The notes under the pieces: model-generated
Seen by the model: only the letters and a program-made list of their open reading frames with translations
Databases searched by the model: none
What the model was told of the DNA's origin: nothing
DNA from: a virus
Reading direction: 5' to 3' (one strand)
Length of the DNA: 25,900 nt
IMG/VR virus record: IMGVR_UViG_3300020472_000149
Location: 1 to 25,900 of that record
Program-made: the position numbers and the translations under genes
Part shown: piece after piece, positions 1-23,696 of the stretch
How positions within the stretch are numbered: position 1 is the stretch's first letter
How the letters are laid out: the number at the start of each line of letters is the position of its first letter

Positions 1-225
1 GAAATAAATGCGGATTTATATGCTCAAGAAACAGCGGCTAAAAAAGCTCACAAAGAAGAATCTCCAGTAAATTTTAACATTAAAAAAGCAGAGAGACAAG
101 CTAAAAGAGCCGCGAGAAAAGCTAAAAGAAAAGCTAGAAAATTAGGAGCTTATAAACCTCCTTACGCTCCATTTAATCCAACATCAGGGGATGATGGCGC
201 TGGTGGAACAGAATACGATAATTAA
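1..225 (+). CDS. Basic small phage protein, 5' truncated
   Basis: The frame is open from the first base and stops with TAA at 223-225, so this is the last 74 residues of a protein that begins outside the window. The visible part has an S-P-V motif (codons at 61-69, in KEESPVNF) and a strongly basic Lys/Arg/Ala stretch (AERQAKRAARKAKRKARK), which could bind nucleic acid or be an extended helix. It ends in a Pro/Gly/Asp tail finishing EYDN. That tail resembles the end of the protein at 1725-2045 (PPY, then SGD, then E-aromatic-DN), and both carry KEE followed by SPV, so the two are probably paralogues. I do not recognise a function; small virion protein is a guess from context. Confidence 0.7.
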   Translation, partial: EINADLYAQETAAKKAHKEESPVNFNIKKAERQAKRAARKAKRKARKLGAYKPPYAPFNPTSGDDGAGGTEYDN

Positions 226-243
226 TAATAAAACAAACTAGTT

Positions 244-465
244 ATGAATCATAAAAAATATGATCCAGCAATGGAAAGATTAAAGCCAGGAACTAAAGTT
301 GGTATAGTTGGGGAATCTCATATATGGGATGGTCCTCTAGATCAAGTTGGAAGACCTCATGGAAGTGGGTCAAGTTCTGGAATAACAGGAATGGAAGTAC
401 TGAAAGCACCAGTATCTTACAAAGGAATGCCTATCACTGAATGTGCCAAAGTATATAATAAATAA
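244..465 (+). CDS. Hypothetical small protein (73 aa)
   Basis: ATG start after an A-rich leader, 18 bases after the previous stop. The product is polar, with a Gly/Ser stretch in the middle (GSGSSSGITG) and no membrane segment. It lacks the SPL motif of its neighbours; KAPVSYKGMPITEC near the C-terminus is the closest local resemblance. The gene sits in a tight co-directional run of small genes, and the next ATG is 3 bases after its stop, so it is probably translated as part of that set. No family is recognised. Confidence 0.7.
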   Translation: MNHKKYDPAMERLKPGTKVGIVGESHIWDGPLDQVGRPHGSGSSSGITGMEVLKAPVSYKGMPITECAKVYNK

Positions 466-468
466 ATC

Positions 469-669
469 ATGGGATACACACAATACGGTAGTCCATTTCT
501 TCAATCTGGAAAAGGCTGTGCAAAATCTGAAGGCGGTTCAGGTTGTGTAGTAAAAAGAGGAAATGAATGGATTATATTAAATAATAAAAAAGGTGGTGTT
601 TGGAAAAGTGGTTTTGCGTCTGAAAAAGCTGCAAATGATCAACTTAAAGCGTACCACGCAAATAGCTAG
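469..669 (+). CDS. Small SPF-motif protein (66 aa)
   Basis: Starts MGYTQYGSPFLQ, so an S-P-F motif lies at residues 8-10 (bases 490-498). A Cys pair follows (GKGCAKSEGGSGCVV, C-x7-C), then a compact segment with WIILNNKKGGVWKSGF and a Lys/Ala helix ending in AYHANS. I recall similar small proteins in marine phage genomes, without a known role. Start choice is firm: the ATG follows the preceding TAA by three bases, and MGY is also how two other proteins here begin (1725 and 3430). It may be a minor virion or assembly protein, but that is inferred from location only. Confidence 0.75.
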   Translation: MGYTQYGSPFLQSGKGCAKSEGGSGCVVKRGNEWIILNNKKGGVWKSGFASEKAANDQLKAYHANS

Positions 670-674
670 AAATT

Positions 675-1307
675 ATGAGCTCTCCATTCCAAAAAAAATT
701 TATGGGTAAAAGCCCATTAAGAGATTCTAAAACTGGAGTTGAAAACACTTATGATAAAGAAATGCATAAGGTAGCTTCTGTAACAGATGATGATGCTTTA
801 GATATAACTGGAAAATATGATTCAGAGTATGATAAAAGGACTGATAAAGAATATATAGATCCTGACACTAATAAACCACCGGTTCAAATGAAATCACCTT
901 TACATGGTTATGTAGAAGCTAGTGATATGGTAGATCCTAGTCCTCCTACAGCACATATGTGGAATAAAGTTTTTGATTCTTTTACACAAGCTTATAAAGA
1001 TGTAGTTACACCTAAAGATCCATGCGAGGGCTTAACTGGTGATAGTTTAGCTAAGTGTAGAAATAAACAGTATGAAACTAAATCAGCGGGAACTGGAGAA
1101 AATACTTCTACACCAAAACAAGAAGCACCTAAAGATACAAGTGCATATGCTAATCTTCCAGATGACTATGATAGTGAAATTCATAAAGCTGGATTTGATA
1201 AAGATAATAAAAGAGTATTAAAAGATTCAGAAGGTAACACATACGCAAAATACGATGCTACCTCAAACCAATGGGTACACGTTGATAGTGTTCAAGATTT
1301 TGGTTAA
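675..1307 (+). CDS. Small SPL-motif protein (210 aa)
   Basis: An acidic/basic mixed protein rich in Asp, Lys and Tyr. It has three copies of the tag: SSPF at residues 2-5, GKSPL at 11-15 and MKSPLHGY at 72-79. A Cys pair follows in PCEGLTGDSLAKC (C-x10-C), resembling the Cys pair of the next protein. The C-terminal third (from about residue 148) has a different look (DDYDSEIHKAGFD, then DSEGNTYAKYDA) and may be a separate small fold. No transmembrane segment or enzyme motif is visible. The stop is followed by a tetranucleotide run and then the next gene. Function unknown. Confidence 0.75.
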   Translation: MSSPFQKKFMGKSPLRDSKTGVENTYDKEMHKVASVTDDDALDITGKYDSEYDKRTDKEYIDPDTNKPPVQMKSPLHGYVEASDMVDPSPPTAHMWNKVFDSFTQAYKDVVTPKDPCEGLTGDSLAKCRNKQYETKSAGTGENTSTPKQEAPKDTSAYANLPDDYDSEIHKAGFDKDNKRVLKDSEGNTYAKYDATSNQWVHVDSVQDFG

Positions 1308-1323
1308 TAAATAAATAAATAAA
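1308..1323 (+). repeat. TAAA tetranucleotide run, four copies
   Basis: Four consecutive TAAA units fill the whole gap between the stop at 1305-1307 and the ATG at 1324. The run also supplies several redundant in-frame stops and an A-rich leader for the downstream start. Slippage here would change leader length only. Confidence 0.8.
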
Positions 1324-1707
1324 ATGGGACATAAAGGACATTGGGGTGAATATACTGGTAACACAAAATGGTCAAGAGACCACGCCCACACAAAAGTTAC
1401 TAAAGAAAATTATAAAGCATCTGAAAGAGATGATGCTGCACATATTGATTATCTTAAAAGAGATGTACTATATGATGATCATCATGGTCATAGTGATGAA
1501 AAAATGACAGCTGATGAAAAACATATATCAAAATTAGCAGGAGATATGAAATATGACAAAGAACATCATGGTTCAGCGGCTAAGATGGTTTCTCCGCTTA
1601 ATGAAACTCCATGTATGCAATTACCAGAAGGTAGTAAAAAGAGAAAAGAATGTATGGAAAAAAGAATGAAAAACTATAAAGCTAAACAAAAAGGAAAAAA
1701 TCAATAA
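1324..1707 (+). CDS. His-rich SPL-motif protein (127 aa)
   Basis: Starts MGHKGHWGEYTG after the TAAA run. The protein is rich in His, Asp and Lys (for example YDDHHGHSDEKMTADEKH), suggesting a charged, helical and possibly metal-binding body at residues 35-85. MVSPLNETPC at residues 88-97 carries the tag (Ser codon at 1591), and a second Cys lies 12 residues beyond the first (C-x12-C) before a Lys-rich C-terminal tail. The SPL-then-Cys-pair order matches the protein at 675-1307. I recall comparable proteins in marine phages but no assigned role. Confidence 0.75.
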   Translation: MGHKGHWGEYTGNTKWSRDHAHTKVTKENYKASERDDAAHIDYLKRDVLYDDHHGHSDEKMTADEKHISKLAGDMKYDKEHHGSAAKMVSPLNETPCMQLPEGSKKRKECMEKRMKNYKAKQKGKNQ

Positions 1708-1724
1708 CAACTAATAATTAAAAC

Positions 1725-2045
1725 ATGGGATACAATAAAGAAGAAGATTCACCAGTAACAAACTTAAATAAAGGATATGGTCATGAATCAGTAAAAACAG
1801 AAAGACATAATTTATTAACCGATAATCCAGTAGCAAAAGATGCTAGTGGAGAAAGAGGTGGATCATGGATGTCAAAACATGCTAGTCAATCGAGAATGGG
1901 AAGCCCATTACACGAGAAGATTACGATGACAAAGAAAAAAACTAAAATGCCTCCTCAACCTGCACCGCCTGCAACGCCTCCATACGGAACTGTTACTGGA
2001 TCAGGTGATACAAATGAATTAGGTAAACCGGAATTCGATAACTAA
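1725..2045 (+). CDS. Small SPV/SPL-motif protein (106 aa)
   Basis: Begins MGYNKEEDSPVTNLN (SPV at residues 9-11) and has RMGSPLHEK at residues 58-66 (Ser codon 1902-1904), so it carries both tag variants. A Lys-rich stretch follows, then a proline-rich spacer (PPQPAPPATPPYG) and a tail ending PEFDN. The tail is similar, in protein and DNA, to the end of the truncated protein at 1-225. The composition looks disordered, with no enzyme signature. It is the last gene before the structured leader at 2046-2113. Confidence 0.75.
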   Translation: MGYNKEEDSPVTNLNKGYGHESVKTERHNLLTDNPVAKDASGERGGSWMSKHASQSRMGSPLHEKITMTKKKTKMPPQPAPPATPPYGTVTGSGDTNELGKPEFDN

Positions 2046-2633: not shown

Positions 2634-2951
2634 ATGGCTTTTAAATTAGGAGATCCACCGTATTCTACGGATAATATACCTGTCTATCATGTTCCTATGG
2701 AAGACGGAGTAGCTGGTAAAGCTAACAACAATGGAACTATCATTGTAAATAAAGATATGGATCCCAGCCAAATAGACAATATTGTAGCACATGAAAAAAT
2801 TCATATAGAGCAAATGAAACGTGGGGATTTAGATTATGACGATGATTGCGTTTATTGGAAAGGAAAATGTTATCCAAGATCTAAAATGAATGAAGGTGCT
2901 AAAAATCTTCCGTGGGAAGCGGAAGCGTATAATAGAACACAAAACGCATGA
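2634..2951 (+). CDS. Small HExxH metallopeptidase-like protein
   Basis: A 105-residue protein with HEKIH at residues 53-57 (zinc-binding HExxH), preceded by the hydrophobic helix start NIVA. Glu residues in LPWEAEAYN (E95, E97) sit where the third ligand of a minimal gluzincin-type fold would be. DDDCVYWKGKCYPRSK between them looks like a substrate-strand or lid region. It is much shorter than typical secreted endolysin peptidases and has no signal peptide. Its stop overlaps the start of the holin-like gene (ATGA at 2948-2951), which suggests coupled translation and possibly a lysis role. A capsid-maturation or other protein-processing enzyme is the alternative. Zinc peptidase chemistry is known for the motif; activity here is inferred. 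Confidence 0.65.
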   Translation: MAFKLGDPPYSTDNIPVYHVPMEDGVAGKANNNGTIIVNKDMDPSQIDNIVAHEKIHIEQMKRGDLDYDDDCVYWKGKCYPRSKMNEGAKNLPWEAEAYNRTQNA

Positions 2952-3403
2952 GTAAAAAGAAATTCAAAGATACAACTGTTGGTCAACTATTGTTTGGTGC
3001 GGCATCTGTTATTAATCCTACTTTAGGAAATGTATTGCAAGGTGTAACCTCACCAAAAGAAGCAATAGCAGAAATAACAAAATCTGATGCGCCTCAAGAA
3101 GATAAAATTAAACTTCAACAATTAATATATGACCAACAAAATAAAGAACTAGAAGCTATCACATCAAGATGGCAAGCAGATTCCATGTCAGATTCTTGGA
3201 TGTCTAAAAATGTACGCCCGTTAGTATTAGTGTGGTGTATAGTTATATTTTCATTAGCTGGGATTTTAGACAGTATAGAAACACTACCATTTCATATAAA
3301 TGAATTATGGAATGATACTTTCGAGAAAATAATGATGTCGGTCGTCTTAGCCTATTTCGGCGGACGTACGACTGAAAAGGCATCTAGTATTTTTAAAAAA
3401 TAA
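2948..3403 (+). CDS. Holin-like membrane protein (3TM/GTA-type)
   Basis: 151 residues. The N-terminal 30 include a weakly hydrophobic glycine/alanine helix (VGQLLFGAASVINP). The middle is a charged helix (EDKIKLQQLIYDQQNKELEAI), followed by the characteristic SRWQADSMSDSWMSKNVRP. Two hydrophobic segments follow at about residues 92-108 (LVLVWCIVIFSLAG) and 126-138 (KIMMSVVLAYFGG), ending GRTTEKASSIFKK. The order helix, WxxD..SxSWxxKNxRP, TM, TM, FGGRTxEK matches the GTA-type 3TM holin family, so it probably permeabilises the inner membrane at lysis. It overlaps the metallopeptidase-like gene by 4 bases. Confidence 0.75.
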   Translation: MSKKKFKDTTVGQLLFGAASVINPTLGNVLQGVTSPKEAIAEITKSDAPQEDKIKLQQLIYDQQNKELEAITSRWQADSMSDSWMSKNVRPLVLVWCIVIFSLAGILDSIETLPFHINELWNDTFEKIMMSVVLAYFGGRTTEKASSIFKK

Positions 3404-4315: not shown

Positions 4316-4532
4316 TATTAGAAAGATCAGTATTGGATCTGATTATAAAAATGACGCTATGCACTATGCTATTGGGCAACAAGTGTATGGCGGTCATATA
4401 ATTTCTCATATTTTATTTGAAGAATCTGATAACTCTTATAATATTTATATTAAAAAAGATACTGAAGTATTACCTTGGAAAAAGTTTAACTCTAATATGG
4501 CTATTTCTGTAGAATATGACTTAGAATATTAA
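4305..4532 (+). CDS. Hypothetical protein, GTG start (75 aa)
   Basis: The reading frame starts with GTG at 4305-4307, overlapping the previous gene by 11 bases; no ATG is available early enough to keep the N-terminal IRKISIGSDY segment. The body has a beta-rich GQQVYGGHIISHILFEE then YNIYIKKDTEVLPWKKF pattern and an acidic C-terminus. The stop overlaps the next ATG (TAATG at 4530-4534), so it is translationally coupled to the co-chaperonin-like gene. I recall related small proteins beside packaging genes in marine phages; no function is assigned. Confidence 0.65.
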   Translation: MENNIRKISIGSDYKNDAMHYAIGQQVYGGHIISHILFEESDNSYNIYIKKDTEVLPWKKFNSNMAISVEYDLEY

Positions 4533-5137
4533 TGAGAAGCTTATATGATTTTATTATTACCCCAGTGGGTGATAAATATAATAATGAAATTCAAATAGGT
4601 GATAAAAAAATAGTAGTAAATACTAAAATAGAATCCTGGAAATTCGTTAATAGAATCGCAAAAGTAGTTAAAACACCTTTAGCTTTTAAAACTAAAATCA
4701 AAAAAGGTGATTTAATTGTAGTGCATCAAAATGTTTTTAGAACTTTTTACGATATGCGTGGTGAAAAGAAAAAAAGTAGATCATGGTTTAAAGATGATTT
4801 ATATTTTTGCTCATTAGATCAGTTATATTTATATAAAAATAATACTGGTTGGCATAGTTTTGGGGATAGATGTTTTATCCAACCAATAAAAGATAATAGT
4901 TCTATAACGTTAAATAAAGAACGTAGTTTAATAGGTATATTAAAATATGGTAATAGTTCTTTAGAAGCTATTAAAATCAACGAGGGAGACTTAGTTGGAT
5001 ATACTCCAAACAGTGAATGGGAGTTTTTAATAGAAAAAGAACGTTTATATTGTATGAAATCAAATGATATTGTTATAAAATATGAGTACGAAGGAAACGA
5101 AGAAAAATATAATCCAAGCTGGGCAAGTAGCAGTTAA
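4532..5137 (+). CDS. Two-domain GroES-like co-chaperonin
   Basis: 201 residues that read as two GroES folds in tandem. Domain 1 (about 1-103): LYDFIITPV, then RIAKVVKTP, then IKKGDLIVVHQNV, then DDLYFCSLDQLYLY. Domain 2 (about 108-186): FGDRCFIQPI, then SLIGILKYG, then INEGDLVGYTPNSEWEFLI, then RLYCMKSNDIVIKYE. Each matches the GroES order L-D-RVIV, G-V-VG, V-GD-V-F, LI-ESDILA. Family knowledge: GroES caps GroEL and supports folding; T4 gp31 replaces it for capsid-protein folding. Inference: this protein works with host GroEL on a virion protein such as the capsid protein at 11220-12683. The possible mobile loop (about residues 18-35 and 122-131) is not clearly recognisable as a canonical GroEL-binding loop. 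The gene is coupled by TAATG upstream, and its 3' end overlaps the next gene by 56 bases. Confidence 0.65.
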   Translation: MRSLYDFIITPVGDKYNNEIQIGDKKIVVNTKIESWKFVNRIAKVVKTPLAFKTKIKKGDLIVVHQNVFRTFYDMRGEKKKSRSWFKDDLYFCSLDQLYLYKNNTGWHSFGDRCFIQPIKDNSSITLNKERSLIGILKYGNSSLEAIKINEGDLVGYTPNSEWEFLIEKERLYCMKSNDIVIKYEYEGNEEKYNPSWASSS

Positions 5138-5357
5138 AGAGTTAATTAAAGTTGCTAAAGAACCCATTATAGATTATGGACCAGATATTTCCGCAGATAG
5201 ATTAAAAAATGCTGCAGCTACTAAAAAATTAGCAATATTTGATGCTTTTGAAATCTTAAATAGATTAGAAGAAGAAAAAAATATGTTAGAAGATAAACCT
5301 AAAGAAGCTAAGAAAGAAAAAACTTTTAAAGGTTTTGCAGAAGGGAGGTCTAAATAA
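5082..5357 (+). CDS. Small protein before TerL, possible small terminase subunit
   Basis: 91 residues, mainly helical (IIQAGQVAVKELIKVAKEP, then ADRLKNAAATKKLAIFDAFEILNRLEEEKN), with a Lys-rich tail. The ATG at 5082 lies inside the 3' end of the preceding gene. It is kept because the IIQAGQVAV segment, which recurs in related marine phage proteins as I recall, would otherwise be lost and no later ATG precedes the helices. Position directly before TerL, with overlapping TAATG, suggests the small terminase subunit, but I see no definite DNA-binding motif. Confidence 0.6.
   Translation: MSTKETKKNIIQAGQVAVKELIKVAKEPIIDYGPDISADRLKNAAATKKLAIFDAFEILNRLEEEKNMLEDKPKEAKKEKTFKGFAEGRSK
5343..5348 (+). 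promoter_or_regulatory. Shine-Dalgarno-like GGGAGG before TerL
   Basis: GGGAGG lies 8 bases upstream of the TerL ATG at 5357. It is the only strong SD match I noticed at a start in this window. It also encodes residues of the preceding protein (EGRS), so it may be coincidental, especially as Bacteroidota rely little on SD pairing. Confidence 0.35.
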
Positions 5358-7570
5358 TGTACAAACAAGATTTATATAGAATATTACCTAATTATGTTAA
5401 ACCTAAAGTTCTTAAAAGAAATAATAGGTATAAAAAATGGGAGTATGGTTATAATGAGGAACATGATTTTATAGTAATTAGTAAATCAGGAATGATTGGT
5501 GATGTCTATGAAATACAAGGTTTAAAAATAGCACTTCCAAATACACCTAAAGATATTTATAGATTTAAAAATGATAAATGGAGTAAGGTTGAATATCCTA
5601 AAGTTTTAAGTAAAATAAAAACTGTTTTTCATTGGAGAGAATATCCAGAAGATTTTAAAGAAAAATGGTATGGATATATTGATAGTGAATTTAAAAAACG
5701 TGAAGAAGGTTTTTGGTTTTATAACAAAGGGATTCCTACTTATTTAACTGGAACACATTACATGTATTTACAATGGAGTAAGATTGACGTGGGACCTCCA
5801 GATTTTAGAGAAGCTAATAGATTGTTTTTTATTTTTTGGGAAGCATGTAAAGCAGATGATAGATGTTACGGCATGTGTTATCTTAAAAATCGTAGATCTG
5901 GTTTTTCATTTATGGCTTCAGGAGAAGTTGTTAATTTAGCAAGTATATCAAGTGATTCAAGATATGGAATATTATCTAAAACTGGACCAGATGCAAAAAA
6001 GATGTTTACTGATAAGGTTGTTCCTATTTCAGTTAACTATCCTTTCTTTTTTAAGCCCATCCAAGATGGTATGGATCGACCTAAAACAGAATTAGCATAT
6101 AGAGTACCAGCTTCTAAATTTACTAGAAAAAGTATTGAATCTGGAAGTGAAGTTGTAGACTTAGAAGGTCTTGATACTACTATTGATTGGAAGAATACTG
6201 GAGATAATAGTTATGATGGTGAAAAATTAAAACTGTTAGTACACGATGAAAGTGGTAAATGGGAAAGACCTAATAATATATTAAACAACTGGAGGGTTAC
6301 AAAAACAACTTTAAGACTTGGTAGTAGAATTATAGGTAAATGCATGATGGGTTCTACTTCTAATGCTTTAGATAAAGGAGGTAGAAATTTTAAAAAACTA
6401 TATGATGACTCAGATGTTACAAAAAGAAACGCCAATGGACAGACTCGCTCAGGACTCTATTCTTTGTTCATACCTATGGAATGGAACTACGAAGGATACA
6501 TTGATTCTTATGGCATACCTGTATTCGAAACCCCAACACGGATCGTTGAAGGTCCACATGGGACAAAAATTAGACTTGGAGTAATAGAGTATTGGGATAA
6601 TGAAGTTGAAGGTTTAAAAGAAGATCAAGATGGTTTAAATGAATTTTATAGACAATTCCCTAGAACCACTAAACACGCTTTTAGAGATGAATCTAAAGAA
6701 TCTTTATTTAATTTAACAAAGATCTATCAACAAATAGATTACAACGAAGATATTAGAAGCTCTATAAATGTAACGAAAGGAAGTTTTCAATGGGAAAACG
6801 GAGAGCAAGACAGTAGAGTAATATTTATACCTAACCCACAAGGAAGATTTTTAGTGACTTGGGTTCCAGAAGTTAGTTTACAAAATAGAAGATATATTAA
6901 AAATGGAATTAATTATCCTGGTAATGAACATATGGGTGCGTTTGGATGTGACCCTTATGATATATCAGGAACAGTAGATCGAAGAGGATCTAACGGATCT
7001 TTACATGGATTAACTAAGTTTTCTATGGAAAGTCATCCACCAAATCATTTTTTCTTAGAATATATAGCAAGACCTCAAACTGCTGAGATATTCTTTGAAG
7101 ATGTTTTAATGGCATGTGTATTTTATGGAATGCCAATACTTGCAGAGAATAACAAACCTAGACTACTTTATTATTTTAAACGTAGAGGTTATAGAGGTTT
7201 TGCAATGAACAGACCAGATAAAAGAAGAAATAAATTATCTGTAACAGAAAGAGAAATAGGTGGAATACCTAACTCAAGCGAAGATATTAAACAAGCACAT
7301 GCTTCAGCTATTGAAACATATATAGAACATTTTGTTGGATTAAAGGAAACAGGATATGGTGATATGTATTTTCAAAGAACATTAGAAGATTGGGCAAGAT
7401 TCAATATAAATAATAGAACAACACATGATGCTTCTATTAGTTCTGGATTAGCTTTAATGGCTTGTAACAAACATAGATATGCACCTAATACAGTACGTGA
7501 ATTAGAACCTGTAGATTTAGGTATAAAAAAATACGACAATAAAGGATATACATCAAAAATTATAAGTTAA
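5357..7570 (+). CDS. Terminase large subunit (TerL)
   Basis: 737 residues, ATP-driven DNA packaging motor and headful/cos nuclease. The ATPase half has an arginine-bearing, atypical Walker A-like segment (LKNRRSGFSF, about 176-185), a clear Walker B (KLLVHDES, D297/E298) and a coupling motif (MMGSTSNA, about 332-339). The RNase H-like nuclease half has the three acidic positions expected: D532 in GAFGCDPYD, E597 in ILAENNKP and D691 in THDASISSGLA. The length is within the larger end of the family, and the start overlaps the preceding stop (TAATG). A patch around 6421-6600 has visibly higher G+C than its flanks. The portal ATG follows its stop directly. Identification is firm; the catalytic assignments are from motif reading. 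Confidence 0.93.
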   Translation: MYKQDLYRILPNYVKPKVLKRNNRYKKWEYGYNEEHDFIVISKSGMIGDVYEIQGLKIALPNTPKDIYRFKNDKWSKVEYPKVLSKIKTVFHWREYPEDFKEKWYGYIDSEFKKREEGFWFYNKGIPTYLTGTHYMYLQWSKIDVGPPDFREANRLFFIFWEACKADDRCYGMCYLKNRRSGFSFMASGEVVNLASISSDSRYGILSKTGPDAKKMFTDKVVPISVNYPFFFKPIQDGMDRPKTELAYRVPASKFTRKSIESGSEVVDLEGLDTTIDWKNTGDNSYDGEKLKLLVHDESGKWERPNNILNNWRVTKTTLRLGSRIIGKCMMGSTSNALDKGGRNFKKLYDDSDVTKRNANGQTRSGLYSLFIPMEWNYEGYIDSYGIPVFETPTRIVEGPHGTKIRLGVIEYWDNEVEGLKEDQDGLNEFYRQFPRTTKHAFRDESKESLFNLTKIYQQIDYNEDIRSSINVTKGSFQWENGEQDSRVIFIPNPQGRFLVTWVPEVSLQNRRYIKNGINYPGNEHMGAFGCDPYDISGTVDRRGSNGSLHGLTKFSMESHPPNHFFLEYIARPQTAEIFFEDVLMACVFYGMPILAENNKPRLLYYFKRRGYRGFAMNRPDKRRNKLSVTEREIGGIPNSSEDIKQAHASAIETYIEHFVGLKETGYGDMYFQRTLEDWARFNINNRTTHDASISSGLALMACNKHRYAPNTVRELEPVDLGIKKYDNKGYTSKIIS

Positions 7571-20559: not shown

Positions 20560-22488
20560 ATGGGAGCTGTAGTAGAAGTAAAGTATTTTAATTCCTTCGT
20601 TTTAAGAAAGACAATAACAGGCTCAAAACAACCGATATGGAATGGTTCTTTTGGAATTCCTAATGATCTTAACGGTGGTTTTCCAGCTACAGCAGAATCG
20701 ACTGATCAAGCTGCTAATTGGGCTATAGAAGAATCAAGAATTAGAGGTGGATACAATAATACTTCTACTAGTTATGGAGCGAAAGCTTATTTAGTAGAAG
20801 AAGAACCTAATGCTTTTACTAGGTTTAATGCTATGATATATTCTGGAATATTTAATTCTAGAACTGGTATTAATGATACTAATGTATTTAGTGTAGGAAC
20901 AGACATTAGTAAAGCTACTGATCCAGCTAATGGATCTATCCAAAGATTATATGCTGAAGATACAAATTTATATATTTTTCAAGAAAATAAAGTTAGTAGA
21001 GCATTGATAGATAAAGACGCTATTTATTCTGCAGAAGGACAAGGAGCTGTTACATCTAGTAATTTAGTAATAGGTGTTATACAACCAATTGCGGGTAAAT
21101 ATGGAATATCTAAAAATCCAGAAAGTTTTGCGGTATATGGTTTCAACAAATACTTTGCAGATAAAAACAACAATGTTATACTAAGATTATCTAATAATGG
21201 TATTGATGAAATATCTAGTGCTGGAATGAGAGATTATTTTAGAGATGAATTAAATAACCTAGATGTTAGTGGAACACCTGGATTTATAAGAGGTGGATGG
21301 GATTTATATAATAGTCAATATGTTGTATCTACACAACAAAACACGATATATAAATCATCAGGTGCAGATTATAAGACACTATCTTTTGATCCTACGGTAC
21401 AAGGTTGGACTAGTTTTTATAGTTATCTTCCAGATCAATTGTTTAGTGTAAAAAATAATTATTATACTACTAAAGGAGATAAATTATATAAACATTATTC
21501 TACAAGTGTAAATAGAGGTAGTTTCTATGGAACTAATAATAAAAGTAATGTTACATTGGTGTTTAATCCTGAACCAACAAGATCTAAGACTTTTAATACT
21601 ATAAATTATGAAGGAAGTAATGGGTGGTATGTAGAATCAATGCTATCAGATCAAACAGGGCAAGACCCAAGTGTTACACCAAGTGGACAATGGTTAAGTC
21701 CTTCTGATACAGGTTTAGAAATACTTAGTTATTTAGATGGTGAATACGTTGAGCCAACTGGTAATGGACAAACCGTTGCGGCTTCAGCTATAACAACAGT
21801 AACTTTATTAATAGGTGGAGTTACTTCTTATAATATTACAGCGGGTGGAACAGGTTATACCGCAACCACTGGGGTTGCTACTACTGTAGCACCAGCAGGT
21901 GGAACTGGTTTAACTGTGGACACAACAGTTGTTGGTGGTGTTGTTACTCATGTAGTTATTAATGCTGTAGGATCATCTTATTCAGTAGGTGATGTAGTAA
22001 CAATAACAGGTGGAGGTGGTAATGCTAAATTTACTGTAACATCAGTACAAAGCACAACAGGGGATATACCAGCAGGAGCTATAGTGAGTGGTGTTGGGGT
22101 TAGCTCAGGCACAACAGTTGTTAGTTATAATACTGCTAATGGGCTTTTAACATGTAATCAAGCTTTAAATGTTGCTGCAGAAGCAGTGCTAGATTTTACC
22201 GCTACTGTACCTAGATCTAGTTATAATACGTTATTAGGTACAACTATTCCAGGTTGGCCTCGTTATTATTCTGGTTTTAATAGAAAAGAAAATAAATATG
22301 TAGCTGATATAATAAATAATACTACTTTAACAATGATACCAGGAGAAGTAATATTTGGTAGTAATATAAGTGGATTAAAAGGTTTTTATCTTACTACTAA
22401 AGTATCTACAGACAACACCACTAATTTAGGTGCAGAAAAACAATTGTTTTCAGTAGGTACTAATTATATAATGAACAACGGTTATTAA
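20560..22488 (+). CDS. Tail protein, C-terminal part of the giant stabilization protein
   Basis: 642 residues, 23 bases after the nucleotidyltransferase-like gene. Residues 75-225 (YSGIFNSRTGIND, then DPANGSIQRLYAEDTNLYIF, then GKYGISKNPESFAVYGF, then NKYFADKNNNVILRLSNNG, then SSAGMRDYFRDEL) strongly resemble the C-terminal region of large tail proteins of marine phages as I recall, where it is joined to the NKDLDARLLPNGEYRDA domain. Here that domain is a separate gene (15618). The C-terminal third holds a GGTGY module (421-496), then a beta module like those of the giant gene (502-547), then YYSGFNRKENKYVAD. Probable part of the tail hub or stabilising ring. The start at 20560 is the first suitable ATG. 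Confidence 0.65.
   Translation: MGAVVEVKYFNSFVLRKTITGSKQPIWNGSFGIPNDLNGGFPATAESTDQAANWAIEESRIRGGYNNTSTSYGAKAYLVEEEPNAFTRFNAMIYSGIFNSRTGINDTNVFSVGTDISKATDPANGSIQRLYAEDTNLYIFQENKVSRALIDKDAIYSAEGQGAVTSSNLVIGVIQPIAGKYGISKNPESFAVYGFNKYFADKNNNVILRLSNNGIDEISSAGMRDYFRDELNNLDVSGTPGFIRGGWDLYNSQYVVSTQQNTIYKSSGADYKTLSFDPTVQGWTSFYSYLPDQLFSVKNNYYTTKGDKLYKHYSTSVNRGSFYGTNNKSNVTLVFNPEPTRSKTFNTINYEGSNGWYVESMLSDQTGQDPSVTPSGQWLSPSDTGLEILSYLDGEYVEPTGNGQTVAASAITTVTLLIGGVTSYNITAGGTGYTATTGVATTVAPAGGTGLTVDTTVVGGVVTHVVINAVGSSYSVGDVVTITGGGGNAKFTVTSVQSTTGDIPAGAIVSGVGVSSGTTVVSYNTANGLLTCNQALNVAAEAVLDFTATVPRSSYNTLLGTTIPGWPRYYSGFNRKENKYVADIINNTTLTMIPGEVIFGSNISGLKGFYLTTKVSTDNTTNLGAEKQLFSVGTNYIMNNGY
21820..22050 (+). repeat. 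GGTGY module, second copy
   Basis: Encodes ITAGGTGYT, GTGLTVDTTVVGGVV, VINAVG, VGDVVTI, matching about 3631-3846 of the 184-residue protein gene. Both copies keep the same order and spacing. It appears inserted within another beta module. Confidence 0.6.
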
Positions 22489-23021: not shown

Positions 23022-23696
23022 ATGAGTGTAGTAGCAGCCGGTATTGGCGCAGCAGGTTCAATCGTTGGAGGACTTATTGGCTCTGGCGCAGCTAGAAGAG
23101 AGGCGAGGCGTAAAGAACGACAAGCCCGTAGACTTAATGCTAAGCTAGAAAATCTTGAAGCCAATAGACAAGAGATTATAAACCCTTTTGAAGGAGTGCA
23201 AGACTTAAGTAGTATGCTTAGTAATCCCTTTGCTTCATTAGGAGTAGCCACGCAAGCTGCTGAAATGAAAATAGAGCAAGCAGATATTTCTTTAGCTAAT
23301 ACTTTAGATACTATTAGATCTACTGGTGGAGGATCTGGAAGCGCTACTGCTTTAGCTCAAGCCGCGTTACAAGCTAAAAAAGGTGTGGCAGCTAATATTG
23401 AACAACAAGAAGCTCAAAATGAAAAAATGAGAGTACAAGGAGAGCAAACCTTACAAAGACAACAAATGGCTGAACAACAAAGATTACAACAAGCAGATGT
23501 GTCAGGCAAGCAATTTGTATTTGGTCAACAAGAAAATAGAGAAATGCAACAACTAAATAGATTATCTAATCAAATAGGAGCTTTAAGGGGTCAAGCTGCA
23601 GCCGCTAATCAATCTGCTACAGCCGCTATGACTGGCGCTATATCAAGCGCAACGTCAATGCTAGGAGCAGGAATAGCCGCACATAATCAAGGATAG
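23022..23696 (+). CDS. Internal virion protein-like (T7 gp14-type)
   Basis: Starts one base after the previous stop. The N-terminal AAGIGAAGSIVGGLIGSGAA (residues 5-24) is a Gly-zipper hydrophobic helix, followed by a basic stretch (REARRKERQARRL). The middle is a Gln/Ala/Glu-rich coil (GSGSATALAQAALQAKKGVA, then QGEQTLQRQQMAEQQRLQQA). The C-terminus is again Gly/Ala-rich (ISSATSMLGAGIAAHNQG). This matches the look of small ejection proteins of podoviruses that enter the host envelope. Likely packaged inside the capsid; role by resemblance only. Confidence 0.65.
   Translation: MSVVAAGIGAAGSIVGGLIGSGAARREARRKERQARRLNAKLENLEANRQEIINPFEGVQDLSSMLSNPFASLGVATQAAEMKIEQADISLANTLDTIRSTGGGSGSATALAQAALQAKKGVAANIEQQEAQNEKMRVQGEQTLQRQQMAEQQRLQQADVSGKQFVFGQQENREMQQLNRLSNQIGALRGQAAAANQSATAAMTGAISSATSMLGAGIAAHNQG

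Follow-up and report, generated by a model that had tools for sequence, protein, structure and literature searches.

A short tag, SP[LF], recurs at the front of many small, mostly basic and otherwise unrelated proteins encoded in a variable gene cassette of a group of aquatic bacterial viruses, where it is enriched, selected at the protein level, and, among relatives, absent from one and replaced by a different tag in others. We give about an even chance to the explanation that this tag serves as an address for the virion interior and works like the capsid targeting sequence of phage T4.

The window, a 25.9-kb virus record, begins with six small open reading frames (ORFs), all on the plus strand, that contain eight SP[LFV] sites, every one of them in frame. 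The earlier note had reported such sites in five of six small genes, and the observation is real and more extensive than first noted. The first ORF (1..225), whose 5' end is cut by the window edge, encodes a small basic protein with SPV at 61-69; no homologue was found among the first 80 related loci. The second (244..465) encodes iwd (GESHIWDGPLDQ...PITECAK), a conserved marker of the cassette and the sole exception among the six, with GPL and PIT in place of SP[LFV]. A member of the KGC family follows (469..669), with the tag MGYTQYGSPFLQS ahead of its body and SPF at 490-498 (GSPF from 487). The MSSPFQKKFMGKSPL protein (675..1307) carries SPF at 681-689 and SPL at 711-719 and 894-902, and its MSSPF-type front end is like that of a family tagged in 49/49 members. 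The last two ORFs encode a His/Asp/Lys-rich protein (1324..1707) with SPL at 1591-1599, towards the C-terminal end, and a member of the GSWMSKH family (1725..2045) with SPV at 1749-1757 and SPL at 1902-1910. Enrichment over shuffled proteins, which the earlier note had proposed checking, is pronounced: the six proteins have eight sites compared to 0.33 expected from whole-protein shuffles, none of 20,000 shuffles attains eight, and the 23 ORFs in the rest of the window contain four compared to 3.7 expected. The eight sites are written in seven different 9-base words that use both TCN and AGY serine codons, and the same codon mix is seen across the cassettes of related loci. Thus, the tag has been selected as protein rather than inherited as DNA.

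The terminase large subunit encoded in the window (TerL; 5357..7570, plus strand) is 63% identical to that of a podovirus from Manatee Spring and 44% identical to those of the Flavobacterium elemo phages, and is also related to TerL of Cellulophaga phages, among which phi38:1 is classed in Pervagoviridae. The muzzle protein (20560..22488, plus strand) has a crAss_MUZ_C domain, a C-terminal domain present in all five records examined (the window and four longer relatives) that indicates a crassvirus-type virion. Based on the kinship of TerL and this muzzle, the host is probably a Bacteroidota bacterium. The gene at 23022-23696, which follows those for the muzzle and a tail fibre, encodes a Gly/Ala-rich, then Arg-rich protein that may be an ejection protein, judging by its position and composition.

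Using terL as an anchor, we collected 160 related loci, in which the gene order is groEL - groES - hth - variable genes - holin - g4043 - g4305 - g4532 - terL. The variable genes usually include iwd and a small HExxH peptidase, and the holin (phrog_3427; 2948..3403, plus strand) forms the right-hand border of the cassette. Just upstream of terL, positions 4532-5137 encode a conserved 201-aa protein whose PHROG match is annotated as co-chaperonin GroES; related contigs also have a groES-sized gene next to groEL.

Between the conserved borders, the variable part of the cassettes comprises 939 proteins in 116 families. Every tripeptide was scanned, using one random member per family, and compared to shuffles: SPL ranks first of all tripeptides (23.8 families compared to 3.3 in shuffles) and SPF second (17.5 compared to 2.7), with no such excess of SPF in non-cassette genes (4.2 compared to 2.8) and a weaker one of SPL (12.0 compared to 4.3). 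The excess is concentrated at the N-terminus. YKQ, SPL, and SPF top the list for the first 40 residues of cassette proteins, and the density of SP[LFMIV], ~1.3 per 100 residues over positions 1-20, drops to values of mostly 0.01-0.25 past residue 50. In a shuffle restricted to the N-terminus, SP[LFIVM] occurs within the first 60 residues of 40.9 of the 116 families, versus 6.6 (maximum 13) in shuffled sequences. Reordered controls are low, with SPL in 19.0 families versus 1.2 for LPS and 1.1 for SLP, and SPF in 13.9 versus 0.2 for FPS and 0.1 for SFP. The tag thus sits mainly in the first ~40 residues, although mid-protein and multiple copies also occur, up to 12 per cassette. Typical front ends are MSSPFQKKFMGKSPL, MGYTQGNNPLSRKTSPLN, MAYKQYNSPFNKK, MAFKLTNSPFKK, and MKSPLREG, often within a longer front end of the form M[AG][YF]K[QLM]..(N)P[LF]SRK.SP[LF][NK]. 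Tagged families are basic, with a median pI of 9.6 compared to 5.1 for the core, and have a median length of 175. Conservation in homologues, the other check envisaged at the outset, also held: orthologues retain the tag in 49/49, 25/26, 16/19, 11/11, and 7/8 cases in five families.

A strict DNA pattern for M[AG]YKQ..SPLN matched just 13 of 2.9 million viral contigs, 12 of which carry the same TerL, the remaining one being an out-of-frame chance match. The idea of a wider occurrence of the tag, in unrelated phages, was dropped when six of seven contigs proved to have this same TerL. Among 85k cellular genomes, the pattern gave six matches, two of them in frame and only one of these (116 aa, Shewanella) an ORF of fair length; the cellular matches are probably due to chance. 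A strict pattern for MSSPFQ..KSPL matched no viral contig, although related loci encode such proteins, which makes that scan uninformative.

The tag is modular. It is found on unrelated bodies, namely DUF6321, the KGC domain, the WPSAYASG domain, and a metallopeptidase, and longer contigs have a second tagged cluster past the tail genes. One relative, the 77-kb genome G003, whose TerL is 76% identical, is untagged and encodes DUF6321-like, WPSA-like, KGTGKKPKG, and metallopeptidase bodies without any tag. At the cassette position, L190/L191 and L203 (G003), which share this TerL type and lack both tags and iwd, encode very long repetitive proteins. In the window, the small HExxH metallopeptidase (2634..2951, plus strand) has an N-terminal tail at the tag position that reads MAFKLGDPP, compared to MAFKMDSPI or MAFKMNSPF in relatives. 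HExxH is invariant in this family, and the predicted structure, confident apart from a low-confidence front tail, resembles a minigluzincin fold (Foldseek E of 0.05 at best and probability of 0.9-0.99 against selecase/abylysin). The metallopeptidase is common in related loci, but tblastn found none in the elemo, Cellulophaga, and Manatee Spring records; its alignment is too variable for a collection-wide scan.

In relatives without SP[LF], several families have G[AP]A[KRQDEN] instead, partly at matching places. This Gly motif, which is short and loose, was defined once the data had been inspected, and in some Gly-type genomes it occurs in several copies in one repeat-rich protein. Among 100 cassettes, 73 have at least two SP proteins, only one of them also having at least two Gly proteins; 12 are the reverse (at least two Gly proteins and not two SP proteins), with L100 among them probably spurious, and 15 are of neither type. 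SP and Gly protein counts are negatively correlated over these cassettes (Spearman -0.49), and label permutations on tag type ignore relatedness. Orthologues of the KGC family read HSSPLLANGKGC in L020 versus NRLGAAKAGKGC in L125, and those of the GTYP family STPFLQKSPLKE versus NNPLGAAKKVG, in both cases at or near the same place. A per-genome scan for top tripeptides was too noisy to reveal tag replacement. Mapped onto the TerL tree, the Gly type requires six changes, or about five without L100, which may reflect repeated change or an exchange of cassettes. The second, distant cluster, inspected in Gly-type genomes after the motif had been defined, bears on this choice. In the Gly-type genome G016, three of its proteins have GPA, GAAN, and GAAK/GAAN fronts, with MAYKVKGPAIKEKAYE in place of the MAYKQSPFFITEAAYE of L029, an SP-type relative, and GFHMGAAN in place of the GFHNKSPL of another, L063. 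In G015, also Gly-type, GAAN and GPS (GPSK) each occur once; the intermediate G022 has GPSQ, and the cluster shows no clear tag in the G017 and G019 contigs. Gly-type tags at this distant cluster argue, from two genomes, against a simple block transfer of one cassette.

The iwd protein (244-465) has an invariant W.GPL and GxS core and is predicted to be mostly unstructured, its model being too poor for a fold search. Its C-terminal form PIT..A[KQ] is found in 46 SP-type genomes and no Gly-type genome, and the NAVL form (NAVLCAQ) in 16 Gly-type and 10 SP-type genomes. As a perfect marker of tagging, iwd was rejected, since 13 cassettes with iwd have no tag by the strict pattern. The portal start, which the earlier note had counted with the set for its NSPF, does not belong there: homologues read NSAF, NSSF, NSIF, or GSF, SP[LFIVM] occurs in 3 of 80, and the conserved part is FPSQVV, so NSPF is not a tag.

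How might such a tag work? Under the virion-interior explanation, SP[LF] would be a short linear address, recognized by one trans-acting partner made by the phage, in the disordered N-terminal stretch of numerous late proteins that are small and, for the most part, basic. This partner would bring tagged proteins into the assembling head, or the tail lumen, as internal cargo that would be packaged alongside the DNA and probably passed to the host upon infection. Since the tag is modular, absent from one relative, and replaced in others, a partner acting in trans is implied. Lineages can swap SP[LF] for G[AP]A[KRQN] on several families, as would be expected if all tags must match one receptor. 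Of the three roles suggested in the earlier note, docking to capsid or scaffold and contact with a shared partner overlap, and both fit a tag that is modular, N-terminal, kept in orthologues, and exchangeable. The choice of the virion interior as the address, of a head component as the receptor, and of injection as the fate of the cargo is our inference.

T-even phages package internal proteins that are alike only in an N-terminal leader directing packaging (PMC9026906, PMC12373910). The T4 proteins IPI, IPII, and IPIII resemble the tagged set in being small and basic, with unrelated bodies, encoded at variable loci, several per phage, and in sharing a short N-terminal sequence, the capsid targeting sequence. 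However, they belong to another phage group and have another motif, whereas the proteins described here have up to 12 tag copies per cassette, internal tags, and two tag types among relatives. A likeness of another sort exists in encapsulins, whose cargo peptides are short, occur on unrelated cargo, and dock inside an HK97-fold shell, although, unlike the N-terminal tag described here, they are usually C-terminal and placed on enzymes. Such cargo-loading peptides are a further close system (PMC7355545). Crassvirus virions keep cargo proteins in both capsid and tail (PMC10172136). The cargo of phicrAss001 (gp45/gp46, RNA polymerase subunits; PMC10172136) comes from the same virion type, with a muzzle domain, but consists of large proteins, and the passages describing it mention no shared tag, whereas most of the tagged proteins are small and have their genes outside the tail module. 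Taken together, stored crassvirus cargo and the T-even leader make a virion-interior address the simplest mechanism. Against it, no cultured phage is known to carry the tag, and tags occur mid-protein and in several copies, whereas the T4 leader is single. In the untagged phi38:1, small basic proteins from the same gene region are labelled structural; as counterparts of the tagged proteins they were rejected, as they are not homologous.

Other readings account for parts of the same evidence. The tagged proteins could form an internal core or glue, their tags binding each other or one scaffold multivalently with no delivery, as several tag copies per protein and the conserved, mostly unstructured iwd, with a C-terminal form that follows tag type, would suggest. 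We consider this unlikely, as the extreme variability in cassette gene content fits accessory cargo better than a core, and as iwd, sitting in the same cassette, may co-vary with tag type through inheritance. Rather less probable is that the tag is a cleavage site at which a maturation protease removes N-terminal propeptides, a change in protease specificity then changing the tag; a site with Pro or Ala before P1 (SPL, SPF, SPV, GPA, GAA) is put forward with the same reserve. The N-terminal position, the several sites per front end, the shift of P1 from large hydrophobic residues to Ala, and the metallopeptidase in the same cassette agree with cleavage. Likewise, head proteins of SPN3US, several of which have N-terminal extensions, lose propeptides, but these are mostly long, occur on the portal too, and are cleaved after Glu by an identified protease (PMC10052503). 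Processing, the remaining suggestion of the earlier note, is not supported: conserved sites are absent from MCP, portal, and scaffold, tags also lie mid-protein, and an S78 prohead protease was found in none of five records, all possibly incomplete. A search for a protease of the T4 gp21 type (S77) was without a match, although no control matched either, and the cassette metallopeptidase is absent from some tagged cassettes and itself has a tag-like tail. Cleavage is thus less likely than a virion-interior address.

A chaperonin address, by which the phage GroEL/GroES, whose genes adjoin the cassette, would receive the tagged proteins, has in our view only a slim chance. In its favor, the cassette lies next to groEL and a groES-sized gene, and chaperonin recruitment has been reported for T4 propeptides (PMC10052503). 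In an exploratory screen of nine proteins, against random splits that ignore phylogeny, alignment columns separating the tag types numbered four in GroEL (0.1 in random splits), two in MCP (0.04), and zero or one in the other seven, so that core proteins co-vary at most weakly with tag type and the screen is only a lead. Yet the Manatee Spring phage, the elemo phages, and the untagged G003 have groEL without tags, and small, polar proteins make poor chaperonin clients. Finally, the likeness could be a functionless by-product of composition or of recombination at gene starts, given that cassette genes shuffle between phages. This reading is largely refuted and very improbable: the varied DNA words and serine codon classes of the eight window sites speak against it, and neither local shuffles nor reordered controls reproduce the excess.

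The virion-interior address might be extended to a genome-wide code, in which every virion-interior protein would bear the short tag of its own phage. Relatives would have switched this code repeatedly from SP[LF] to G[AP]A, the tags on unrelated proteins of two widely separated loci changing along with a single receptor; we regard this as a tentative and rather doubtful proposal. If the virion-interior address itself is correct, a simple motif search would expose which proteins are delivered by a large and hardly cultured group of Bacteroidota-type phages, in parallel to the T4 leader, which revealed anti-restriction internal proteins, and a tag so easily moved would be usable for filling crassvirus-type particles with proteins of choice. 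The replacement of tags between closely related phages provides a natural experiment for finding the receptor.

Beside the metallopeptidase gene, positions 2475-2630 of the window encode a member of a 51-aa family with the pattern GLGDxIEKxTxATGIK..CGC..LNxxFPY, which also occurs in Microcystis phage Mel-JY01 and in the Manatee Spring phage.
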